Notes under the pieces: model-generated | The model's database searches: none | Told to the model about the DNA's origin: nothing | What the model saw: only the letters and a program-made list of their open reading frames with translations | In this document: one piece after another, positions 10,952-39,067 of the stretch | How positions within the stretch are numbered: the first letter of the stretch is position 1 | Layout: the number at the start of each line of letters is the position of its first letter | Source: Aeriscardovia sp. | GTDB taxonomy: Bacteria > Actinomycetota > Actinomycetes > Actinomycetales > Bifidobacteriaceae | Reading direction: 5' to 3' | DNA length: 39,523 bases | Assembly (NCBI GenBank): GCA_017386585.1 | Contig: JAFNPO010000099.1 | Location: 1 to 39,523, forward strand | Program-made: the position numbers and the translations under genes

Positions 10952-13405
10952 TCAGAGCAGGTTCTTTTTCTCCATCCATTTCATGTAGATGCCGCCGAGC
11001 ACCATGCGCAGCCAGTAAGTCTCGACGCGAAACAGAAGCGTAGCGGACACTGCGATGGTGGGCGGCACACCAATTCCAATGAATGTCGCCGACAGAACGG
11101 CCTCGATAGCACCCAGACCGCCCGGCGTGGGAATGGCCTGGCCGATTGCGTTCGCCAGGAGGAAGAGGAAGATGGTCTCGATGAAGTCGGCGTGGTAGTT
11201 GAACGCGAAGAGCGAAAACCAGAAAGCCATGGCTAGTGTCGTATTTTGGATGATAGAGCCACACATCGAAATCAGCAGCGTGGTGGGATGGGAAAAGAGT
11301 TCTAGGAGCTGACGGCTGTACGAGCGCAACGTCGGCACGACTTTGTTGTGTACCCAGACGCGCACCGGCGGGATGATCATGGCCACGGCGCAGGCTGCTC
11401 CCAGCAGCCCAATAACGATGATGACTGTCTTGCCGGGTAGCACGTTCTGCAAGGCGTTTTGACCGGTGAAGACGCCCAGGATGATGAACATGAGGAGCGT
11501 AGTAGTGAACTCGGCTACCATGTCAGCGGACGTGATGGCAGTGGCACGCGTGCTCTGGTAACCGATCTTGCGTAGGAAGGTAAAGTTAACAGCGACCGGT
11601 CCGGCGAGAGCCGGCATGGACACTGCCGTGAAGCTGGCAGCAGCCTGTGTTCCTAGGATGCCGAGGTAGTGTCCTTTGCGTTTATCGGGATCGATAAAAG
11701 AGCCGAAGGCGATGCCCGAGCCGGACCAAGAGACTAGCCCGATGAGGAAACCGGCCAGACCCCACCACGGATCGGCATCCTTGACAGCCTTGATAACCTG
11801 CTCAAAGTTGAGCTGAGTAAACACGACGACGAGTGCGACAACCACCAGCAGAGCCGTGACGAAGCGACGCACGCTGAAACGCGCCAGCTGCACCGGCTGA
11901 GCGGCCTCCAAATTTTCCGTAGGGTTCAGGGCCTCCAGGTCGGAACGCAGAGTCTTGAGCAGATGCTTATTCCAGCCGGTGGCCTGCTTGGTGGGTTTAG
12001 GCACGGCGATGCTTTGGGTATAGGGGGCGATGGATGCCAGCTGCTGGCGTGTCATCACTTTCTGTGCCAGGCTAATTGTCCGGTCGATACCGAGGGCGGT
12101 GCTGAGCAGAGCCAGCAGCTGCACGCGGTCGATTTGCTTGTGGGCGTTCGTGGAGATGATGTCACCGTAGGACCAACCGCCGATGACCGGAGTCCCGTCG
12201 GCGGCGCGGCCGATGCAGGCGGGTGTTAGCTCTCGGTGTGAAATGCCGTGACTGTGTGCAGTCTCCATATCGGTCAGCAGGTGGACAACGTCACCGTCGG
12301 ATAACGCCGCCAAGTCGGCTTGCTTGACGGGATGCTCCGGCTGATTGAAAACGAGGAACGTGGATTCACCAGTCGCGCCGATAGCGATAGGATCCGGTAC
12401 GGGTAGCCCAATGCGCCCCAAGCTCAAGAGCATCGTCAGATGATGCTCGGTCATGTCGCGAGCGGAACGGTCCTTGCGGATGGTTAGACCCTCCATAGTG
12501 ACGGTCTTCCATAGCTGTGAGAGGTAGTCGATGGCATGCTCCTGTTCGTCGTTGACGGAGACAACGAGTCGGCGACCGTCCTTTGTCACCGCCGTATAGA
12601 GGCGCGACAGGTCCGACAGGTCATCCATGAAGCTCGGGACCTTGTCAGGACAGTCGGATTGCCGGACGAGTGAAACAAGGTCGAAGCCAACACCCTGCAG
12701 CGCGGTCACCAGCTGCTGACCCCAGGCTCCGGTGCTGGGGGTACCAATCGAGAAACGAAGCGCTAGACCTAGAGCGTAGCCCATGGACAAGGAGACAAGC
12801 AGGCTCGTCAGGGTGATGCCTCCAGATGCGAGAACGATGAAGGCCAGCGCATAGAATACGTCCCACGTCCACCGAATGCGGGTGCGAATGCTGCGGTTGT
12901 TAGCAGCCGTCAGGAAGGCTCCAATGGTGGTGAATAGCTCAAATGGTCCGGTGCCAAACCAATTGCTGGCATGAGTGATGAGCGTACCCAACGGACTGGT
13001 GGGGAAGCGGAGGATAACGAAGGCGAAGACGCTGGAAACGAGGAAGCCAGCGAACAAACCACTCGCAGCCGTTACGGACGGTAGCCACAGCTTAGCCATA
13101 AGAAGCTGGACAAACACGACGGCGACAATGCCCACCATCGTCAGTGACAGGATGAACGCAAGCGGCAGCTGAACGAGCCAGTGCAAATTGGTGCCGGCAT
13201 GGCGCACGTCGCCTTCGATACCGCTGGCTGTTTCCCGTAGCCAGACGGCGACGACAAGGACGAGGATCGTAAACGCGAAGGCAATCACTGCTCTGACGAG
13301 GTTACTCCAGTCACGCACCCGTTTTGGAGCGGAGTCGACGATAGACACGGGCTGCGATGCGGCGGACGCGTCGACAGGTTCACCGGATGTATTCGCTGTT
13401 TTCAC
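10952..13405 (-). CDS. Large membrane protein: TM block, kinase-like domain, LPG-synthase/flippase TM domain
   Basis: The 817-residue integral membrane protein has three parts. Residues 1-240 hold about six hydrophobic helices. Residues 250-460 resemble a protein-kinase/APH-like fold (LVVSVNDEQEHAIDYL, then a catalytic-loop-like SHRELTP at about 389-395). The C-terminal 300 residues form an AglD/MprF-type flippase domain (PTPGGLGAIEAVLSA, FRVETYWLRMVLGG). The catalytic Asp of HRD is Glu and no DFG triad is seen (the spot reads GGWSYGD), so the middle domain is probably a pseudokinase. Related actinobacterial proteins are annotated as lysylphosphatidylglycerol synthase TM-domain proteins. No aminoacyl-transferase domain is present, so lipid or glycolipid flipping is the likelier role. 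The GTG start overlaps the purB stop by 4 nt (GTGA). Confidence 0.8.
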   Translation of the reverse strand: MKTANTSGEPVDASAASQPVSIVDSAPKRVRDWSNLVRAVIAFAFTILVLVVAVWLRETASGIEGDVRHAGTNLHWLVQLPLAFILSLTMVGIVAVVFVQLLMAKLWLPSVTAASGLFAGFLVSSVFAFVILRFPTSPLGTLITHASNWFGTGPFELFTTIGAFLTAANNRSIRTRIRWTWDVFYALAFIVLASGGITLTSLLVSLSMGYALGLALRFSIGTPSTGAWGQQLVTALQGVGFDLVSLVRQSDCPDKVPSFMDDLSDLSRLYTAVTKDGRRLVVSVNDEQEHAIDYLSQLWKTVTMEGLTIRKDRSARDMTEHHLTMLLSLGRIGLPVPDPIAIGATGESTFLVFNQPEHPVKQADLAALSDGDVVHLLTDMETAHSHGISHRELTPACIGRAADGTPVIGGWSYGDIISTNAHKQIDRVQLLALLSTALGIDRTISLAQKVMTRQQLASIAPYTQSIAVPKPTKQATGWNKHLLKTLRSDLEALNPTENLEAAQPVQLARFSVRRFVTALLVVVALVVVFTQLNFEQVIKAVKDADPWWGLAGFLIGLVSWSGSGIAFGSFIDPDKRKGHYLGILGTQAAASFTAVSMPALAGPVAVNFTFLRKIGYQSTRATAITSADMVAEFTTTLLMFIILGVFTGQNALQNVLPGKTVIIVIGLLGAACAVAMIIPPVRVWVHNKVVPTLRSYSRQLLELFSHPTTLLISMCGSIIQNTTLAMAFWFSLFAFNYHADFIETIFLFLLANAIGQAIPTPGGLGAIEAVLSATFIGIGVPPTIAVSATLLFRVETYWLRMVLGGIYMKWMEKKNLL

Positions 13406-14883
13406 TTTTTTCCTGCGCTTTCGCTGGGAGTCGGAGAGGCTTTCCAGTCTAATTGGGATTCCGTGCGCGCGATGGCAGACGCCAGGCCCGTGCAGTCACG
13501 AGGCGACAGAGACAGGAGCAGTTCGCGCGCGGTCGGCGGCAGAGAGAATCGTTCCAGCAGAGCATGGATAGCGTCGCGGCTGGCTGTTTCGCCACGCAGT
13601 GCGTCCTTGACTCGCTCGTAGGGACGGTCCAGACTGGCGTCGCCGGCGAGGCTCTGGGCGCGCATCACCGTCTGGATGGGTTCTCCTAAGACCTCCCAAT
13701 GCGCGTCCAGCTCTTGCTCGAGGAACGCTTTGTCCGGCTCGATGGACCGCATTCCGCGTAGTAGGTTGGTCAGCGCGAGCAGGGAGTAGCCGAACGCCAT
13801 GCCAATGTTGCGCAACATCGTGGAATCGGTGAGGTCGCGCTGCCACCGCGATTCAACCAAAGCAGCGCTCAACTCATCAAATAGAGCGCAGGAAAGCTCA
13901 AAGTTGGCCTCCGCATTCTCAAAGCTGATGGGATTAACCTTGTGCGGCATGGTGGAAGAGCCCGTCGCACCGGGAACGGGAATCTGCCGGAAGACGCCGC
14001 GTGAGACATACATCCAGCAGTCGACGCACAGCCCATGACAAACGCGGTTGGTGTGGGAGACAGCCCCGTAGAGTTCGGCCTGCCAGTCGTGGCTTTCGAT
14101 TTGTGTGGTGCAAGGGTTCCAGGACAAACCCATTCGGTTTTCCACGAAATCACGGGAAATGGCCAGCCAGTCGACATCCGGTAGGACCACGCGATGTACA
14201 CCGAACACCCCCGTCGCACCGTTGAACTTGCCCAGGTACTTCTGGCCAGCAACGCGTCGGCGCTGACGCTTGAGCCGGTGCGCTGTCACAGCCGCCTCCT
14301 TGCCCAAGGTCGTGGGCATCGCCGGCTGGCCGTGCGTCATCGCCAGCATCGGGACGTCGGCCTCGTCGTGAGCAGCCTGATTGAGGAACGCGATGACCCG
14401 GTCCAACGCCGGCAGCCAGATCTGTGTCACCGCCCCGCGTACACAGCGGGCATAGGCAAGGTTATTGACGTCCTCAGACGTGCAGCAGAAGTGGACCAGC
14501 GGTCGCAACCGCGTCAGTTCCGTAGAACGCCTCAGCGCAGTTTCAGCTTCTCTAAGCCGACGGTCACAGTAGTATTCGATGGCTTTGACGTCGTGCCTCG
14601 TCCGTTTCTCGAGGTCGTACAGCTCCCTGACACTCTTCGGACCAAAGTTGCGCGGGATGCTCCGCAGGTAGTCCTTCTCATCGAGGGACAGCGGCTCAAC
14701 GCCGTCCAGCCCCAGGTCGCCAGCATGGTCTGTCAGGTAGACGAGCCATTCGGTCTCGACCACCAGGCGCTCGCGGTTCAGGGCCGGTTCCGAAAGCCAG
14801 TTGACCAGCGGTCGCGTGTAACGCGCGTAGCGGCCGTCAAGGGGATTGAGCGCGATAGGCGGCTTACAGTGGGAGAAATCCAT
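13402..14883 (-). CDS. purB: Adenylosuccinate lyase
   Basis: Catalyses two fumarate-releasing steps of purine synthesis (SAICAR to AICAR, and adenylosuccinate to AMP). The 493-residue product carries the fumarase/aspartase superfamily regions: TSEDVNNLAYA, the His loop MTHGQPAMPTTLGKE, and the signature SSTMPHKVNPISFENAE at about residues 308-324. It is of the longer, E. coli-like PurB type. The ATG at 14883 begins MDFSHCKPPIALNPLDGRY, a normal PurB start. The stop overlaps the flippase-like gene by 4 nt, so the two are co-translated although no metabolic link is evident. A -10-like hexamer sits 6 nt before the ATG. Confidence 0.96.
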   Translation of the reverse strand: MDFSHCKPPIALNPLDGRYARYTRPLVNWLSEPALNRERLVVETEWLVYLTDHAGDLGLDGVEPLSLDEKDYLRSIPRNFGPKSVRELYDLEKRTRHDVKAIEYYCDRRLREAETALRRSTELTRLRPLVHFCCTSEDVNNLAYARCVRGAVTQIWLPALDRVIAFLNQAAHDEADVPMLAMTHGQPAMPTTLGKEAAVTAHRLKRQRRRVAGQKYLGKFNGATGVFGVHRVVLPDVDWLAISRDFVENRMGLSWNPCTTQIESHDWQAELYGAVSHTNRVCHGLCVDCWMYVSRGVFRQIPVPGATGSSTMPHKVNPISFENAEANFELSCALFDELSAALVESRWQRDLTDSTMLRNIGMAFGYSLLALTNLLRGMRSIEPDKAFLEQELDAHWEVLGEPIQTVMRAQSLAGDASLDRPYERVKDALRGETASRDAIHALLERFSLPPTARELLLSLSPRDCTGLASAIARTESQLDWKASPTPSESAGKK

Positions 14884-14889
14884 AGTTCC

Positions 14890-14895
14890 AGCCTA
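14890..14895 (-). promoter_or_regulatory. Candidate purB -10 giving a leaderless mRNA
   Basis: On the - strand TAGGCT is followed by 6 nt and then the purB ATG, the spacing expected if transcription starts at or next to the start codon. There is no clear Shine-Dalgarno site in these bases. Leaderless mRNAs are common in actinobacteria. The -35 is weak. Confidence 0.3.
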
Positions 14896-15758
14896 CTTCG
14901 GTAACAGCCATTTCAGGCTTCGGAGAGAATTAAACAGCTTCAAGGGCATGAAATGCCGCATCTCGGTGAGTTGGTCGTCCAATGTGTTCCCGCAATGACG
15001 TTTATCTCGTTCGACAGAAGGGTTAACGTGACAGATGGGATATCCATCAATTCTCTCGGTGGCGTTTTAGCCCGTGCATAGACTCCGACCGGTCCTTCTC
15101 GTCCAAACCCGTTATTCCGCATGGCTACACACCCTCGTTAGGAATGTCTAATCCTGGGCGCGATAGCGGGCAGGATTCACCGAAGTGGTGATCCTATCGA
15201 GAACAAGGAGGGGTGCTGTTGTTCTCTCAAGGCTGCTCAGCTACGGTTTCTCGGATAGTATGCCCGACGATGGAAAAACTGGCCGTCACGATGGGCGCGA
15301 CGTTGCAGGTCGCAGCATTGCCTGCGAGGCTCACTGTGTTAACCGGCCGGTCGTCCCCCGCAGCGTGTGGGTTGGCGTTGCTGCGCTTATCAGCTGGAGA
15401 TTCTGCAGCTGCTCATCAGTGATTCCAAATGGTTTGAGTTAGTTCCTGAGGGCAGACCACCTCGGGGTTTGCTTCGGACAGTGCCTGATAGTGCCGCACA
15501 GTGACGGTACCTAAGGAACAATTTTTCTGGGTGGGGACGGTTAGGGTATTGCTGGATAAGCCTGCCAGCAGAAAGAACGCGCTCAGACACGCCGTGCGAA
15601 TCTCAACAGAATGGATTTCGCTTTGAAACAGGGCTTGAGCACTAGGGGAGCTAGCAGGTTGGTCGGCTCGTTGACAGCAGGAAGGAATGATGCTATCGAT
15701 GCTTGTAGAATTTTCCTCTCCCCGAGTACTGGTGCCAGCAGCAGTCGGTCGCTGGCAT

Positions 15759-15794
15759 TGAGTAGGCGTTTCGCCTTGGCGAAACGCCTACTCA
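15759..15794. repeat. Perfect palindrome, 17-bp arms, 2-nt centre
   Basis: TGAGTAGGCGTTTCGCC (15759-15775), TT, GGCGAAACGCCTACTCA (15778-15794). The arms are exact reverse complements. There is no T-run on either side, so it is not a standard intrinsic terminator. It lies about 200 nt beyond the stop of the last VWA-operon gene, in the direction of its transcription. Confidence 0.95.
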
Positions 15795-15995
15795 CCCAAA
15801 TTTTCAATGCCGCCAATTGCTGTGGAAGCGACACACAGCGTCGTTCAGGCAGCGAATCCGTCCTCCGGGAGTTCACCCAGGGGCTGAAGAAACCAGGCGT
15901 TCGCAGCAACAGCAATGATTCGGATAGGTTCAGGGTCATCAGCCGATCCGAGGGATAGCCATGAGAAAAGGAGTCGAAGGATGCGAGCGTTCGGA

Positions 15996-16592
15996 TTACC
16001 AGGGCTGCGTCGTGGTGACGTGTGTTGGCGCAGCAGCGGTGCCGTCGGCGGTCGAAGAGTCGTTCACAGTGTTCTGTCGCAGCAGGGAGTCCAGTTTCGT
16101 CTGATCCTGCGATTCCTGCGTCCGTTCCTGCGCTTCCTGAATCGCCTGATTCCGTGCAGCGTCCGTCGATTGCGACGACGAAGACGGCGATGAAGTCGAC
16201 GAGGACGGCGCTGGGGAGGCACCCGCTTGCTTAACGTTCTGGTCGGCAGCCTCTTCGTTTTTCTTCTGGATTGTCGTGAGCTTGACGTCTAGCGACTTGC
16301 TGGCCTGTTGAGCCGAGCGGATGGCCTTGCTGACACGCCGTGCCTGGAACAACGACGTCGACGCTTCTGACGCCAGCTGCTCATTGACCTGCGACTGGGA
16401 GCGCTGCAGTGCCGAGATGTCTGGGTCTTTCTGAGAAGCGGAGATTATATTGCTCTGCAGCAGCGCTGCTGTGGCGTTATAACGGCGTGACACCGACCAG
16501 TTCAACAGCGCCGCCGCCGCGGCGGCGAGGAACACGAGGGCGCACAGGACGCTGACGATGATGCGGAGCACTGTGGAACGTTTGGCTGTCAC
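15996..16592 (-). CDS. Ser-rich membrane-anchored protein at the end of the MoxR/VWA operon
   Basis: I do not recognise a named family. The 198-residue product has one N-terminal membrane helix (about residues 8-32), a Gln/Ala/Ser-rich and probably helical external part (QSQVNEQLASEAS, RVSKAIRSAQQASKSL), and then a low-complexity Ser/Pro stretch and Gln/Thr-rich tail with no cysteines. GTG 16592 is chosen because it overlaps the preceding VWA stop by 4 nt (GTGA) and has AGGAGG just upstream. An upstream in-frame start would lie inside the VWA gene. Position and coupling suggest it works with the VWA proteins at the membrane, perhaps as a scaffold or partner. Function is unknown. Confidence 0.8.
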   Translation of the reverse strand: MTAKRSTVLRIIVSVLCALVFLAAAAAALLNWSVSRRYNATAALLQSNIISASQKDPDISALQRSQSQVNEQLASEASTSLFQARRVSKAIRSAQQASKSLDVKLTTIQKKNEEAADQNVKQAGASPAPSSSTSSPSSSSQSTDAARNQAIQEAQERTQESQDQTKLDSLLRQNTVNDSSTADGTAAAPTHVTTTQPW

Positions 16593-17608
16593 TGGAACCT
16601 CCTCTGGCGGTAGAAATCGATGCCCAGTTCCCACAGGCACAGCAGCGAAAGTACCATCGCGTACGGCCACACCGTGATGTCGCGCTGCGAGTGCTTGCGG
16701 CGCGTTTGTTCAACAAGGTAACTGTGCGAGGCGTCAGGGGTGAGCTTGCGGACGGTGTTCGTGGCGTTCAGCATCAGCGATGTTCCCCCGAATTGTTCGC
16801 CAATCTGCTGAAGGTTCTTCGGATCCTCCTTAGAAATGGCCGGCTGGTGCGTCTTCGGATTGTCAATCCATTCGTCGCCATCCTGGGCGCTCGTCACAGC
16901 CCCGGCGGCGATGTACGGCACCTTGCCGCCGGCGGTGGAGCCGACGCCCAGCGCTGCTCCAGCGTCGACGAACTGCCGCAGCGGACTGAAGGAAGCCTGC
17001 GGGATAGTGGACGTCTGCTCACCGTCGGAGATGAAGTACAGCACGATGGTGTTGTTCGGATGCTCTTGATGGACTTTCTGCATGGCGAGCAGCAGAGTGT
17101 TGACCGGCTCGCTCAGGTGCGTGCCGTTTGACACGGCCGTTGGCTCAACCTGGAGCCCGTCCACCCAGTCATGGATGGCTCCAGTGTCCGGAGTTGGCGG
17201 GACGGCGAGGTCTGCGGAGGCACCAAACGTGACACCGGCGAAGTTCGCGCCCGGGTACAGGGAGACAATGCCGTTGACGGCATCCTTTGCTGCTTGCAGG
17301 CGCGTAATCTTCGTGGGGGAACCGTAGGTTGCATCGTCAACAGCCATGGAGCCGGTGATGTCGATGACGAAGAAGACGTCGGTCCCAGTGACAACCTGCG
17401 ACGAGTTAGTAACGGCCACGGTCGGACCCAGGCTCATCACGACCAGCACCAAGGCGATAAGTCCGCGGCGTGTCCAGTCGAGGACGGTCGAATCGGAGTG
17501 GCCATGGGTGCGCAGGAAGAGGAATAGGCCTACGCAGAATGCAGCGAGGACAACGACGTCGAAGATAATGGTGACGACCCAGTTGTTGAGAAGCGGCACA
17601 AAGGTCAT
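16589..17608 (-). CDS. VWA-domain membrane protein (BatA/BatB-like), second copy
   Basis: The 339-residue protein has an N-terminal membrane region (VVTIIFDVVVLAAFCVGLFLF and a second helix near residue 55), a von Willebrand factor A domain, and a C-terminal helix (WPYAMVLSLLCLWELGI). The metal-binding MIDAS motif is complete as DITGS at the domain start (FVIDITGSM), with a later Thr and the ISDGEQT segment. ATG 17608 overlaps the upstream VWA stop by 4 nt (ATGA); a longer frame to 17671 would overlap it more. VWA proteins next to MoxR and DUF58 are thought to be assembled by the MoxR ATPase. The specific substrate is unknown. Confidence 0.88.
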   Translation of the reverse strand: MTFVPLLNNWVVTIIFDVVVLAAFCVGLFLFLRTHGHSDSTVLDWTRRGLIALVLVVMSLGPTVAVTNSSQVVTGTDVFFVIDITGSMAVDDATYGSPTKITRLQAAKDAVNGIVSLYPGANFAGVTFGASADLAVPPTPDTGAIHDWVDGLQVEPTAVSNGTHLSEPVNTLLLAMQKVHQEHPNNTIVLYFISDGEQTSTIPQASFSPLRQFVDAGAALGVGSTAGGKVPYIAAGAVTSAQDGDEWIDNPKTHQPAISKEDPKNLQQIGEQFGGTSLMLNATNTVRKLTPDASHSYLVEQTRRKHSQRDITVWPYAMVLSLLCLWELGIDFYRQRRFQ

Positions 17609-18795
17609 CGTTTCACCCATCCCATCACAAGGAAGAGTACCGCAAACAGCAGCCCGAGAACCAGAATCCACGGGTCTGGCTGGTCGTCGAGGTCGACGGT
17701 CTGTTCCTTGGCCTTTTGCTCAATTTTCTGCTTTTCGATGCTATGAACCAGCTGGTCTACCGACTGCCCGTTCTGCCGCGTGGAGAAGGTCCCACCTTCC
17801 CACTTGACCTGCTGACGGAACTCCGAGGTCGTAGCGGCGTTAAGCGACTGGTTGTCGCCAGTGTACAGGCCATCGACACGGATTGAATTGCGCTTAGCTA
17901 GGGTCATCGCCTGGTGCAGCGTATAAATCGGCGTGCCAGAAAGCACGTTATCGGTGGCTAAGACGATGGAGGCCGGCGAAACACGCGCCTGGGTTGTCTG
18001 CGCAGAGGCGGAAAATCCGGGGAACATCGCCTCGCAGCTGACCAGACCGTCGCCGATGAGGCTCGTGGCGTTCTTGCGGTCCTGTGTCCCGGACAGGAAA
18101 TTCGAGAGGTTCTGATACTGCTTCGGCGTCATGTTGTTGATGCTCTGCTGGGTGGCTACGCCGTCGAGAGCCGTCAATGCGGAGCGCAACTCCTGCTTGA
18201 CTAAGGAATAGTCGTCGGTTAACGGAAAGACAGTCTTGGACGTAGAGTTGAAGATGCTCATGCCAATGCGCTCGGTCTTAAAGTTCTGGACAAGTTCCAA
18301 GTAGCTAGCGATGACCTGCTGGTCGAACGGTAGCGTGGAGCCAGAAACATCAAGGCACAGCACGATGTCACGTGAGGAGCTAGCAGATTCCAACGGCATA
18401 ACGGTGCTGGGCCGGGCGGCCAGGCACACGGATCCGACAAGCGCGCAGCAGGCTAGAACACTGCCGGCAGCCACACCGATACGGTAGGCGCGATAGCGCG
18501 CCGCGCTGGGAGAAGCTGTGATGCGGCCTTTCAGGCCCCAAGTAAAAAGATGGTCCTTCTGCTTCTTAACGTGGGAGGTCTTTCCTGGGCCATTGAGGAT
18601 ATCGGAGGCGCTCGCATTCTGTTCGTTCTGTGCAGCCAGCGTGGCCTTGAGGCGTTTCTCAGGACTAAGCAGCCGACCGGGGTCCGGCTTATTGGCCGAT
18701 CGGCGCGTTAGCCACAGGATCAGCAGGACAAGCAGAACAATGAGGACCGCGCCAACAATGAGAACGACAGGCCATTGCCAAACGAAGCCGTTCAT
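17605..18795 (-). CDS. VWA-domain membrane protein, first copy
   Basis: The 396-residue protein has an N-terminal helix (WPVVLIVGAVLIVLLVLLI), a basic/polar stretch of about 80 residues, a second helix (AAGSVLACCALVGSVCLAA), a VWA domain with MIDAS DVSGS (IVLCLDVSGST), and a C-terminal helix (PWILVLGLLFAVLFLVMG) ending in basic residues. ATG 18795 overlaps the preceding stop by 4 nt (ATGA) and has a GGTGG site 5 nt upstream; a GTG 9 nt earlier is an alternative. It differs from the next VWA protein by the extra N-terminal helix and linker, so the two are paralogous but not duplicates. Confidence 0.88.
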   Translation of the reverse strand: MNGFVWQWPVVLIVGAVLIVLLVLLILWLTRRSANKPDPGRLLSPEKRLKATLAAQNEQNASASDILNGPGKTSHVKKQKDHLFTWGLKGRITASPSAARYRAYRIGVAAGSVLACCALVGSVCLAARPSTVMPLESASSSRDIVLCLDVSGSTLPFDQQVIASYLELVQNFKTERIGMSIFNSTSKTVFPLTDDYSLVKQELRSALTALDGVATQQSINNMTPKQYQNLSNFLSGTQDRKNATSLIGDGLVSCEAMFPGFSASAQTTQARVSPASIVLATDNVLSGTPIYTLHQAMTLAKRNSIRVDGLYTGDNQSLNAATTSEFRQQVKWEGGTFSTRQNGQSVDQLVHSIEKQKIEQKAKEQTVDLDDQPDPWILVLGLLFAVLFLVMGWVKR

Positions 18796-19280
18796 GCAAT
18801 CCACCTACCAATCAGCGATTCGACCCAGTCGGCTGCCGCGTCAACGTTCGCTTCGCCGGCGTCTCGGTTGCGGCTGGCGTCGGCGAACTCGGGCGGGTAC
18901 AGAGCGGCGATGGTTTGTTTGAAAGCATCAAAATGCTCCTTATTGCTGACCTGGTGGCGTCGATTGAGGTCCAGCAGCGTGTTGGACGTCAGATCGGTCC
19001 CTAGGCGTTCGGAGGCGAAGGATCGGGCGATGCTAGCAAGGCTCGCATAGGCCTCCGTCTCGGTGATGTCGCCAGCCTGGTAAGAGGAGCGGATCTTTTC
19101 GATGTCGGCATCCCATTGGCTAGCCGAATGCGTGACGCTGTGGCGCCACTGCTTAGGCTTGCGCCCTTGTCGGCGGCGGGGACGCAGACAGGCGACAACG
19201 ATGGCAATTAGCGCGAGGACAATAAGAACTACGGCGCACCACAGGAAGGCGTCGACGTTGTCGATGTGCGGCACTGTCAT
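18792..19280 (-). CDS. Small membrane-anchored protein between DUF58 and VWA genes
   Basis: The 162-residue protein has one N-terminal helix (FLWCAVVLIVLALIAIVVACL, about residues 12-32), a strongly basic stop-transfer segment (RPRRRQGRKPKQ) and a mostly helical cytoplasmic part. Such small proteins commonly occur between DUF58 and VWA genes (DUF4381-like position), but I cannot confirm that family from the sequence. Both ends overlap neighbours by 4 nt (ATGA). Topology suggests that the C-terminal part faces the cytoplasm, where it could link the MoxR/DUF58 pair to the VWA proteins. Confidence 0.8.
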   Translation of the reverse strand: MTVPHIDNVDAFLWCAVVLIVLALIAIVVACLRPRRRQGRKPKQWRHSVTHSASQWDADIEKIRSSYQAGDITETEAYASLASIARSFASERLGTDLTSNTLLDLNRRHQVSNKEHFDAFKQTIAALYPPEFADASRNRDAGEANVDAAADWVESLIGRWIA

Positions 19281-20215
19281 GAGGCAGTCATCTCCTTCTG
19301 CAGACGGGGCAACAAGCTCTCCTGGTGGGGACGCATGCCGTTGCGCCGCGTCGACACGAGACGGATGAAGTTCGTCAGCATCTCGTCGCTCGAGCCGCCG
19401 CGCAGCAGTGTGTCACCGTGACGGGCCAGCGCACGGTCGAAGGCTAGTGCCAGGACGCGAGAGCGGGTGTCGATTTCACGGGCGAGTTTGCCGCTCTGCA
19501 GGAAAGCCGGCATGAGCTTGCCATTTTGCGCGTCCTGGATGCGACGATTCGTCGGGTCGAAGGGGTTGACCGGTTCAACGGAGATGAACACGAGCGGGTG
19601 ATCTTGGGAAATCGTGGCGATGAGCTTCTCGTGGCGTGCGTCCATAGCGCTGTCATCGCTAGCGATGACAACTAGGCTGTTGCGCGAGCGAATGCCTTCC
19701 GCGTAGCGCAGCATAGACGTTAGGTCGCGTGGCGCCGGATGTAGCTCTGCGAGGGAATTGGTCAGCACGTGGTCAAATTTAGGGTATTCGCCGGTGAAGG
19801 GGATACGCGTGATGGTGCGCGAATCCGCCAGGACGAGGGAAATGCTGTCCGAGCGCTTGAGGCTGAGGAGCGCGAACATGCGTAACGCGTTGGCGGCCAC
19901 GTCGAGCAGGGTCTCGCCGCTGCGCGCCGTGGCTCCCATCTGGGAGCTGACGTCGAGCATGAGCCAGACCGCGTTGTTGACTTCACGCTGCTTATTGATG
20001 ATGATCGGTTTGCCGGCGCGGCCGCTGGCTTTCCAGTCGATGAGTGCCGCCTCGTCGCCGGGGGCGTAGGGACGCAGATCGAGGTAGTCATAGCCATGGC
20101 CATACTGGTTAGAGCCGTGCTCGCCTTCGAGTGAGCCGAGTGCTGCGCGCGCGACAGGGAGCGTCAGATGCGATCCAAACACCTCCAGCTTGGTACGGAT
20201 GGGATCCTTGCTCAT
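19277..20215 (-). CDS. DUF58-domain protein
   Basis: The 312-residue protein has the DUF58 core YDYLDLRPYAPGDEAALIDWKAS (shown in the family as a conserved RxYxxGDxxxxIDWxxxAR pattern), followed by a VWA-like fold with LMLDVSSQMG in the MIDAS position and a later IASDDSAMD segment. No membrane helix is evident, unlike many DUF58 proteins that begin with two, so it is probably cytoplasmic or peripheral. It overlaps moxR upstream and the small TM gene downstream by 4 nt each. MoxR-DUF58 pairs are widespread and thought to work together in maturation or metal loading of partner proteins. Confidence 0.9.
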   Translation of the reverse strand: MSKDPIRTKLEVFGSHLTLPVARAALGSLEGEHGSNQYGHGYDYLDLRPYAPGDEAALIDWKASGRAGKPIIINKQREVNNAVWLMLDVSSQMGATARSGETLLDVAANALRMFALLSLKRSDSISLVLADSRTITRIPFTGEYPKFDHVLTNSLAELHPAPRDLTSMLRYAEGIRSRNSLVVIASDDSAMDARHEKLIATISQDHPLVFISVEPVNPFDPTNRRIQDAQNGKLMPAFLQSGKLAREIDTRSRVLALAFDRALARHGDTLLRGGSSDEMLTNFIRLVSTRRNGMRPHQESLLPRLQKEMTAS

Positions 20216-21276
20216 GGGGCCGGGACCACCTCGAGTACCTTGTCGACGACCTCGTCGCTGGCCAGGTTGTCGGCCATTGCTTCGAATGTCAGCAGGATAC
20301 GATGGCGCAAGATCTCGTGGGCGAAAGTCTTCATATCCTCGGGGATGACGTAGTCACGGCCGTTCATAAGGGCGAAGGCCTGTCCGACGCGCACTAGAGC
20401 GATGGACGCTCGCGGCGAGGCGCCAAGACGGACGAGCTGGGCCAAGCCCTTGATCGGGCGCGGTCCAGTTCCACGGGTCGTGGATGTTAAGTCGACGGCA
20501 TACTTCATAATCTGGTCGCTGACATGGACGCGCCGGGCGCAGATGCGCAAAAACTGCACGTCGTCGATGTCGATGCGCTGGTCGAGCGGGGCGTCGGACG
20601 AGGTGTCCGTGCCGCGGGACGTCAACAGGCGCAGCACGTCCTGCTCTTCCTCAGCGCTGGGGTAAGTCATGAGCGTCTTCATAAAGAAGCGGTCCATCTG
20701 AGCTTCCGGAAGATTGTAGGTTCCCTCTTCTTCAATCGGGTTCTGCGTGGCGATGACCATGAACGGCTGCGGCAGCTCAATGCGCTGACCGCCGATGCTG
20801 ACGGCACCTTCGCTCATAGCCTCAAGCATGGCTGACTGAGTCTTGGCGCTGGAACGGTTGATCTCGTCGAGCAGCACGAAGTTGGCGTCGATCGGACCCA
20901 TCTGAGTAATAAGCTTCTGCGACTGAAAATCGAAAATCTGGGTCCCCACAAGATCGGACGGCATGAGGTCTGGCGTGCACTGGATGCGCTTGAAGGTACC
21001 GGAGACCGACTGGGCGAGCGTTTGCGCCGCCGTTGTCTTCGCCAAGCCTGGGACGGATTCGATAAGGACATGGCCGCCGGCGATGAGGGATGTGATAAGG
21101 GATTCGCGCAGCATCGTCTGACCGACGACGCGCGTGCAGAAGCGCTGACGCAGCTGCGCCGTCAGTTCCTTAGCGCGCTCGGTGTCGTCACTCGTGAGCG
21201 CCGGCTGCATCTCGTTCAAAGGGTGATCTGCCATCTGTTCATCCGCCGTGAGGGGCGCTGGTGGAAATAGAGCCAT
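20212..21276 (-). CDS. MoxR-type AAA+ ATPase
   Basis: Chaperone-like ATPase that heads the operon. The 354-residue protein shows Walker A as ESVPGLAKTT (the family form of GxxGxGKT), Walker B LLDEINRSS, the sensor stretch IATQNPIEEEGTYNLPEAQ and an arginine-containing MDRF segment, with a C-terminal helical domain. ATG 21276 has a GAAGG site; a GTG 9 nt upstream is the alternative. It is the first gene of a six-gene unit joined entirely by 4-nt overlaps. The 54-bp gap to the upstream ung gene leaves open whether ung and the operon share a promoter. Confidence 0.93.
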   Translation of the reverse strand: MALFPPAPLTADEQMADHPLNEMQPALTSDDTERAKELTAQLRQRFCTRVVGQTMLRESLITSLIAGGHVLIESVPGLAKTTAAQTLAQSVSGTFKRIQCTPDLMPSDLVGTQIFDFQSQKLITQMGPIDANFVLLDEINRSSAKTQSAMLEAMSEGAVSIGGQRIELPQPFMVIATQNPIEEEGTYNLPEAQMDRFFMKTLMTYPSAEEEQDVLRLLTSRGTDTSSDAPLDQRIDIDDVQFLRICARRVHVSDQIMKYAVDLTSTTRGTGPRPIKGLAQLVRLGASPRASIALVRVGQAFALMNGRDYVIPEDMKTFAHEILRHRILLTFEAMADNLASDEVVDKVLEVVPAP

Positions 21277-21330
21277 GACCTTCACTCTACAAATCGCTCT
21301 TGAGAAATCACGTAAAGCCGGGCGCGAAGA

Positions 21331-25205: not shown

Positions 25206-25253
25206 GAAACAAAAAGCGGGAAGCTTCGTCAAAAGCTTCCCGCTTTTTGTTTC
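25206..25253. terminator. Very strong bidirectional terminator after groEL
   Basis: Two 21-bp arms (25206-25226 and 25233-25253) are perfect reverse complements around the loop CGTCAA. The inner stem is AGCGGGAAGCTT, the outer parts are an A-run and a T-run, so either strand would end in T5. Confidence 0.95.
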
Positions 25254-37612: not shown

Positions 37613-37669
37613 ATGGTCTTCCACGATCTGCGGTATACGGCAGCTCCGGCATACAACAGTTCCATTGAT

Positions 37670-37710
37670 GGTCTCATGATGGTCTCAGGGGGGGAGAACA
37701 TCATGAGACC
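37670..37710 (+). promoter_or_regulatory. Hairpin that would enclose the aminotransferase start codon
   Basis: GGTCTCATGAT (37670-37680) is the exact reverse complement of ATCATGAGACC (37700-37710). The right arm contains ATG 37703 and the 19-nt loop contains the purine-rich ribosome site (GGGGGGAG). A second GGTCTCA (37681-37687) directly follows the left arm and could pair instead with TGAGACC (37704-37710). Two mutually exclusive hairpins are therefore possible. Regulation is inferred. Confidence 0.45.
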
Positions 37711-39067
37711 CTGCAAAGGGAGCTACAACCCTTCTCCGCTTCAGGGTGAGGTTCTAAAGATACTCATGAGAGATGGCATTTCCAACGCTTACATCGGTAT
37801 GGAGACGAGTGGGAGGGGGACTCCGAGGTTCTCCCATCGTGTCCCCGTTGGTGAACCGAACCCCATCATCGCCGCTCAAGACGCGGCGAAAACGGTGGGA
37901 CACTCGCTCTACCAACTCAATGACTCCAATCCGACGCACCACGGCCTGACCCTGAAAGACATGCCACTGTGTTACGACGCTGAACCGCGGGGCCAGGGTT
38001 TCGCGCGCCAGGCGCTCGCGGAGTTCCTGACGCACCGCGCCCGTAACCAAGGCTTCGACCTGCCAGTCCCGGCCTGTGTTCCCACTCCGCATGGCGCGGC
38101 CGCTAGTATGGTTTCCATGCTTGCGTCGGAGTCCATCGATTCTGACGATTTGTACCTCGTCAGCTCCACGTCGGAGGCTTATTCATGGCTCATGAAGCTG
38201 TTGTGTGACCCAGGTGAGGCTGTGCTGTGCCCGACGCCGGGCTACCCGCTCATCCCATCCATCAGTGCCCTTGAAAGCGTCAAAGCGGTGCCCTACCCGC
38301 TGCGGTACGACGGCTCTTGGTACATCGACGTGGACTGGATTGCTCGCATTCTTAAGGAACGTGACGATATCCGCGCATTGATTCTCATCAACCCCAACAA
38401 CCCAACCGGCTCCTATGCTGGCCGCGACGACTACGAGCGGTTAGTGGAGCTGTGCGCAGAACATCGTTTGGCGGTCATCGCGGACGAGGTGTTCTTTGAC
38501 TTCGCTCTGGAGCCAACGCACGTCCCGTTCCGCGTCGCGGGGGAGAAACGTGTTCTAACCTTCGGGCTGGACGGCTTTTCGAAGTTGTTGGCCGCTCCGC
38601 ATGCCAAGATTGGCTGGATTCAGATGTCCGGACCGGACGAAGCGATGGCCGAAGCCAAAAAGCGTCTAGACGTTATCAGCGACGACTACCTGCCGATGTC
38701 TAGCATTCTCGCCGAGCGTCTCCCCAGCCTGCTGGAACGCGTGCCCGATCAACTGCGTCGTACGCGCGAGCGAACGGTTGGCAATCTGCGCATCCTCAAG
38801 GATCTTTTAGCCTGTAGTCGTAGCGGTGTGACGACCTTGCTACGCCCGGAGGGTGGCTGGAACGTCTTGCTGCGTTTCCCAGGCTCACTCGACGAGAACG
38901 AGCTGGTCGATGCCATGATTCACGAGCAAGGTATGACCGCCCAACCCGGATACTTCTTCGACATGCCGACCAATGGCTACGTCTGCGCGTCCCTGCTACC
39001 GCGTCCCGCTGACTTTCGCAAAGGAATCTCAGCGCTGCTGGACGTCGTCGACGGCTTCTTCGAATAA
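37703..39067 (+). CDS. PLP-dependent aminotransferase, class I/II
   Basis: Fold-type I aminotransferase, substrate unknown. Seen in order: the substrate-side segment LYQLNDSNPTHHGL, LYLVSSTSEAYSWLMKLLCDPG, PTPGYPLIPSI, the cofactor-contacting NPNNPTGSY, IADEVFFDF, and the PLP lysine in GFSKLLAAPHAKIGWI. The start is uncertain. ATG 37703 (454 residues) has a G-rich Shine-Dalgarno site 6 nt away. An upstream ATG 37613 lacks one, and conserved sequence (SHRVPVGEPNPI) begins about 40 residues in, so ATG 37799 is also possible. It stands apart from its neighbours, with no pathway context. Confidence 0.88.
   Translation: MRPCKGSYNPSPLQGEVLKILMRDGISNAYIGMETSGRGTPRFSHRVPVGEPNPIIAAQDAAKTVGHSLYQLNDSNPTHHGLTLKDMPLCYDAEPRGQGFARQALAEFLTHRARNQGFDLPVPACVPTPHGAAASMVSMLASESIDSDDLYLVSSTSEAYSWLMKLLCDPGEAVLCPTPGYPLIPSISALESVKAVPYPLRYDGSWYIDVDWIARILKERDDIRALILINPNNPTGSYAGRDDYERLVELCAEHRLAVIADEVFFDFALEPTHVPFRVAGEKRVLTFGLDGFSKLLAAPHAKIGWIQMSGPDEAMAEAKKRLDVISDDYLPMSSILAERLPSLLERVPDQLRRTRERTVGNLRILKDLLACSRSGVTTLLRPEGGWNVLLRFPGSLDENELVDAMIHEQGMTAQPGYFFDMPTNGYVCASLLPRPADFRKGISALLDVVDGFFE

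Follow-up and report, generated by a model that had tools for sequence, protein, structure and literature searches.

Within a gene-poor stretch of an Aeriscardovia genome lies a perfect 36-nt palindrome (positions 15759–15794), which raises the question of whether such a structure stabilizes the 3'-end of an mRNA, binds a regulator or belongs to a small mobile or repeated element, the three guesses put forward in the original prediction. The DNA analyzed here (39,523 nt, hereafter the window) constitutes contig C116 of a genome assembled to 1.32 Mb in 138 contigs (97.6% complete, 6.3% contaminated). In agreement with the original description, the palindrome is an exact inverted repeat, TGAGTAGGCGTTTCGCC-TT-GGCGAAACGCCTACTCA, with 17-nt arms and a 2-nt centre. 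RNA transcribed from either strand is predicted to fold into a 16-bp stem capped by a 4-nt loop, with a folding energy of −29.7 kcal/mol and a z-score of −10.3 for the minus strand. The GC-rich stem-loop that characterizes canonical rho-independent terminators is thus present, but the U-tract is not: the 8 nt past the stem contain a single T on the minus strand and two on the plus strand, and a T-run is absent on both sides. For lack of this U-tract the palindrome falls outside the canonical terminator definition, as had been anticipated when it was judged not to be an intrinsic terminator of the usual form. It is also absent from the set of seven terminator-like sites that were predicted, and Rfam gave no match at the gathering score anywhere in the window.

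All genes near the palindrome point leftward, in the order of a gene at 20212–21285 that we take to be MoxR-like, two further genes, two VWA-domain genes (16589–18804, minus strand, identified by domain match), a DUF6466 gene in the same operon (15996–16592, minus strand, within a longest ORF of 15996–16670; domain match and gene calling), a gap of 1112 nt (14884–15995), purB encoding adenylosuccinate lyase (13402–14883, minus strand) and a flippase-like gene (10952–13405, minus strand). The DUF6466 gene is the last of the VWA operon, and the palindrome lies 201 nt beyond its stop codon, which bears out the original estimate of about 200 nt; the start of purB, the next gene downstream, lies 875 nt beyond the hairpin. 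The gap was also correctly described as 1.1 kb without genes, inasmuch as its ORFs (15583–15939, 15611–15958 and 15185–15442) yielded no Pfam match at an E-value of 0.1 and no convincing gene. As to the 20212–21285 protein, its NCBIfam matches were confined to AAA/chelatase families and stayed below the cut-off; its nearest named relatives among the best 80 listed are the Bifidobacteriaceae metagenome-assembled genomes UW_DM_BIF2_1 and BIF4_1, then Aeriscardovia metagenome-assembled genomes, and then Bifidobacterium, by which the genome is assigned to the Bifidobacteriaceae. Elsewhere in the window, a 17-nt inverted repeat with 94% complementarity and a 7-nt spacer (37670–37710) lies close to the start of the 37613–39067 ORF.

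The gap occupies the place where most relatives examined carry an alpha/beta hydrolase gene. Most of them share the gene order VWA, DUF6466, hydrolase, purB and flippase, from which the hydrolase is missing here. In seven genomes of the family (loci L072–L078), purB sits some 2.7–6.9 kb past VWA1, with the VWA genes on one side and the flippase on the other. The DUF6466 gene was confirmed in three of these loci (L072, L073 and L074), a small ORF is found at the place of the hydrolase as well in L072 and probably in L073, and the two hydrolases scanned (L072 and L074) pass the Pfam cut-offs with PGAP1-like and Abhydrolase_8 domains. A second sample consisted of the 22 best loci (L132–L153) obtained from the best 80 relatives of the 20212–21285 protein; by their titles, 21 belong to Bifidobacteriaceae and one (L151) to an uncultured actinobacterium. 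Here, the hydrolase is followed by purB in 18 of 22 cases, L146 has the hydrolase without a purB match, and L135–L137 have neither. In three genomes (G001, G002 and G013), a homologue of the flippase-like gene directly follows DUF6466. More broadly, a search for purB in 151 family genomes, sampled evenly from a larger group, left 13 without a match; these 13 are listed at 0.6–1.4 Mb, some of them being incomplete, and have presumably lost the gene. Both other genomes of the same genus that were examined are among these 13, and the window genome has kept purB. Judging from this gene order across relatives, the simplest reading would be that the hydrolase was lost and purB retained in the window genome. 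The direct adjacency of DUF6466 and the flippase homologue in G001, G002 and G013 had also suggested insertion of purB and the palindrome as one block, an idea we rejected because purB is located between the end of the VWA/DUF6466 genes and the flippase in most relatives. A possible relic of the hydrolase gene was found at 15254–15304 on the minus strand, where VAPIVTASFSIVGHTI resembles the family motif IQHIVTAGSPVANHPI. The match (E = 0.02) agrees in strand and order with what a relic would show, but a better one in the same search (E = 0.013), the best of all, falls on the opposite strand. The profile scores of the relic were reached in 12 of 500 shuffles in one test and in 95 of 2000 in another, so that a decayed trace of the hydrolase is suggestive only.

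How exceptional, then, is the palindrome? When the window was shuffled 100 times under a first-order Markov model, the longest perfect arm (loops of up to 10 nt) was 13 nt and occurred once, which upholds the original view that such a structure is very unlikely by chance; this view is to be tempered, however, by the frequency of similar structures in the genome itself. We recorded perfect hairpins with arms of at least 12 nt and loops of up to 10 nt across 522,919 bases of the window genome and 284,471 bases of G002, using gene calls from a retrained home-made caller that were compared by eye with the ORFs of the window. The genome under study yielded 18 intergenic and 3 coding hairpins. Ten of the intergenic ones are situated in gaps between tandem genes, eight between convergent genes and none between divergent genes (P 0.0045), with divergent gaps accounting for 18.9 of 76.3 kb in this sample. 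For 17 of the 18, the nearest gene end is a 3'-end (random mean 8.46, P 5e-5), and 12 are found within 50 nt of it, compared with 201 nt for the focal hairpin. At a cut-off of 11 nt, one hairpin between divergent genes appears (L028, 9500–9527). G002 contained 11 intergenic and 2 coding hairpins; a 3'-end is nearest in eight of nine cases after dropping two of the 11 at stretch edges (random mean 3.69, P 0.0045), and one of the 11 lies between divergent genes, the divergent deficit not being significant here (P 0.26). The hairpin class is hence concentrated at gene 3'-ends, though not strictly confined there. Hairpins followed by few U residues are no rarity within it: of the 28 that have a sense strand (a 29th, between divergent genes, has none), 10 show fewer than three T among the 8 nt that follow the stem, whichever sense strand is read, the focal hairpin with its single T being one of them.

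Several members of the class deserve mention in their own right. The longest in the sample, a perfect hairpin with 33-nt arms, is located between convergent genes (L096, 18248–18319). An A/T-rich, loopless perfect palindrome of 36 nt at a gene 3'-end, 22 nt from the next start (L035, 4840–4875), might act as an operator instead of forming a hairpin in RNA. Two other gene-poor gaps of about 1 kb (L088, 5274–6390; L038, 8598–9646) contain one perfect hairpin each, with arms of 13 and 14 nt, in a layout similar to that of the focal gap. In genome G003, a perfect hairpin with 17-nt arms follows the purB ORF at a distance of about 30 nt (L072, 9392–9430), again at the end of a gene. At one orthologous convergent site, the hairpins of the genome under study (L030, 14407–14444) and of G002 (L129, 7205–7244) are alignable: four of 15 stem pairs differ, and all four changes are compensatory, leaving Watson-Crick pairs in both genomes. 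This is as expected under maintained pairing and supports the class, but not directly the focal hairpin, for which no orthologue was found. Template-switch correction could be another source of such compensatory changes.

At the corresponding place past DUF6466, a few relatives have a hairpin and most of those examined have none. In G001, which belongs to the same genus, a perfect hairpin with 23-nt arms follows DUF6466 within 10 nt (L021, 8475–8527), its sequence being unrelated to the window palindrome, and L074 has a hairpin with 10-nt arms 80 nt past the DUF6466 ORF. Among the 16 loci of L132–L153 with a detected DUF6466 gene, a hairpin with arms of at least 9 nt precedes the next gene in two, L133 and L151. 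In L133, three near-identical short palindromes are found past DUF6466 (14739–14873), each with a T run within about 40 nt; no tandem array was reported for this locus. L151 has a single hairpin. In G002 and G013, DUF6466 is not followed by any perfect hairpin with arms of at least 10 nt. A hairpin in this position thus recurs without being generally conserved, given that 14 of the 16 loci as well as G002 and G013 lack one at the thresholds used.

REP-like elements and transposon ends can hold palindromes, which is a point in favour of membership in a mobile or repeated element. The results speak against it. With up to two mismatches allowed, the arm was found in its own genome at the palindrome only, plus one site with three mismatches on contig C72; a reversed control pattern had four forward and four reverse sites in the same genome, more than the arm itself. 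None of 38 relatives carries the exact arm. For the gap as a whole, a DNA search of the remainder of its genome and of 150 further family genomes (at most two candidates scored per genome) gave no match, nor did searches of plasmids and phages, and the palindrome core had no exact match in genome_contigs or viral_contigs. REP and MITE elements occur in several copies, whereas the palindrome occurs once. From its single copy and its absence from the relatives and collections searched we conclude that it is not a repeat, and we give the mobile or repeated element next to no credence. The original prediction had named a single copy without counterpart in relatives among the results that would speak against it, and this is what the search for the arm returned, albeit for the exact sequence only; it weighs against the repeat idea alone, as gene-end hairpins need not share sequence.

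Of the three initial guesses, that of an mRNA 3'-end stabilizer fits best, since the class to which the palindrome belongs sits at gene 3'-ends. The hairpin lies downstream of the operon's last gene and can fold on the operon's own strand, as expected of a 3'-end-protecting hairpin. On balance, we lean towards the interpretation that this U-poor hairpin forms the 3'-end of the VWA operon message, probably with the help of Rho and exonucleolytic trimming. The VWA-DUF6466 transcript, synthesized from the minus strand, would reach the palindrome 201 nt past DUF6466, where its RNA would fold into the 16-bp hairpin that sets and protects the 3'-end of the message. RNA polymerase might pause at the hairpin or run just beyond it, Rho would then release the transcript, and a 3'-5' exonuclease, presumably PNPase, would trim the RNA back to the hairpin. 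This order of pausing, Rho action and trimming is proposed because the hairpin is almost devoid of a U-tract; the analysis establishes the hairpin, where it lies, the preference of its class for 3'-ends and the existence of rho and PNPase genes, whereas its transcription, the end of the message and the parts played by Rho and the exonuclease are all inferred. Genes for rho and PNPase score above the family cut-offs in the window genome (G000) as well as in G001 and G002. Further points in favour of a 3'-end function are the stable fold, the commonness of U-poor members in the class, the compensatory changes of the L030/L129 pair, the G001 hairpin next to DUF6466 and the U-poor ends mapped in Streptomyces clavuligerus. 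Points against it are the distance of 201 nt from the stop codon, the predominance of loci without a hairpin among L132–L153, the lack of one in G002 and G013, and the incomplete restriction of the class to 3'-ends.

Release of RNA polymerase by the hairpin alone, in the manner of a U-less ('I-shaped') intrinsic terminator, would be in line with the strong perfect stem and the near absence of U after it, and such terminators are predominant in mycobacterial genes, without a polyU tail, according to a review (PMC12288462). The same review, however, places them no more than 50 bp from the stop codon, which the palindrome with its 201 nt clearly exceeds, and describes mycobacterial intrinsic terminators as scarce and Rho as dominant; moreover, the titles of two papers that it cites disagree on whether a U-tract is needed. 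We therefore consider autonomous release rather unlikely and favour Rho-assisted release with trimming, based on this review and on the reading given for Bifidobacterium breve in PMC5746004. We also find it unlikely, somewhat more so, that the palindrome is a functionless relic, that is, a former terminator or a chance inverted duplication in DNA decaying after loss of the hydrolase and kept perfect by quasi-palindrome correction. The gap indeed replaces a gene kept by most relatives, and the hairpins in the long gaps of L088 and L038 likewise lie far from genes, ranking with the focal one among the five farthest from a 3'-end. Yet the hairpins of the class cluster overall at gene 3'-ends, and a relic should accumulate mismatches, of which the palindrome has none. 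Binding of a regulator to a two-fold symmetric DNA operator, another of the initial guesses, would make use of the perfect dyad symmetry but is otherwise left without support: the next start codon is 875 nt away, a simple consensus scan revealed no sigma-70-like promoter at 13300–17700, the site exists in a single copy, and no hairpin with arms of at least 12 nt occurs in divergent gaps of the own-genome sample. An operator thus appears very improbable.

The palindrome is a real but ordinary element of a known kind, and the 3'-end reading explains a striking structure without invoking a new system. In this genome and in G002, gene ends are marked by long perfect hairpins, of which roughly one in three has no U-tract. 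Such hairpins could guide the annotation of operon ends across the family, in which U-tract-dependent predictors would overlook sites of this type, and they bear on the question of whether transcription termination in Actinobacteria requires a U-tract. Speculatively, and with considerable doubt on our part, many messages in small-genome Bifidobacteriaceae might end at long perfect hairpins that suffice for termination without a U-tract; after loss of a downstream gene, a new, unrelated hairpin might form or be kept at the new operon end and stay perfect through selection or template-switch correction.

For comparison with known systems, the window itself offers the hairpin 39 nt past groEL (25206–25253), with perfect 21-nt arms and a T-rich stem end, which is probably a canonical terminator; like the palindrome it follows a gene and has long perfect arms, but it also has a T-run of five across stem end and tail that the palindrome lacks. 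Term-seq in Streptomyces clavuligerus (PMC8269248) mapped 353 ends with strong hairpins and fewer than three U in the 8 nt past the stem, termed HS-U-lack. The palindrome resembles these in hairpin strength and by the same U count, although they are mapped ends and ours is predicted. To the U-less I-shaped terminators described for mycobacteria (PMC12288462), it is similar in its strong stem without a U-tail and dissimilar in its distance from the stop codon, release being putative here. In B. breve, PMC5746004 reports that transcripts often end at GC-rich stem-loops outside the rho-independent terminator class, where its authors propose Rho-dependent termination or polymerase pausing; while those are transcript ends and ours is predicted from DNA sequence, both come from the same family, judging by the nearest named relatives, and have the stem-loop downstream of genes.
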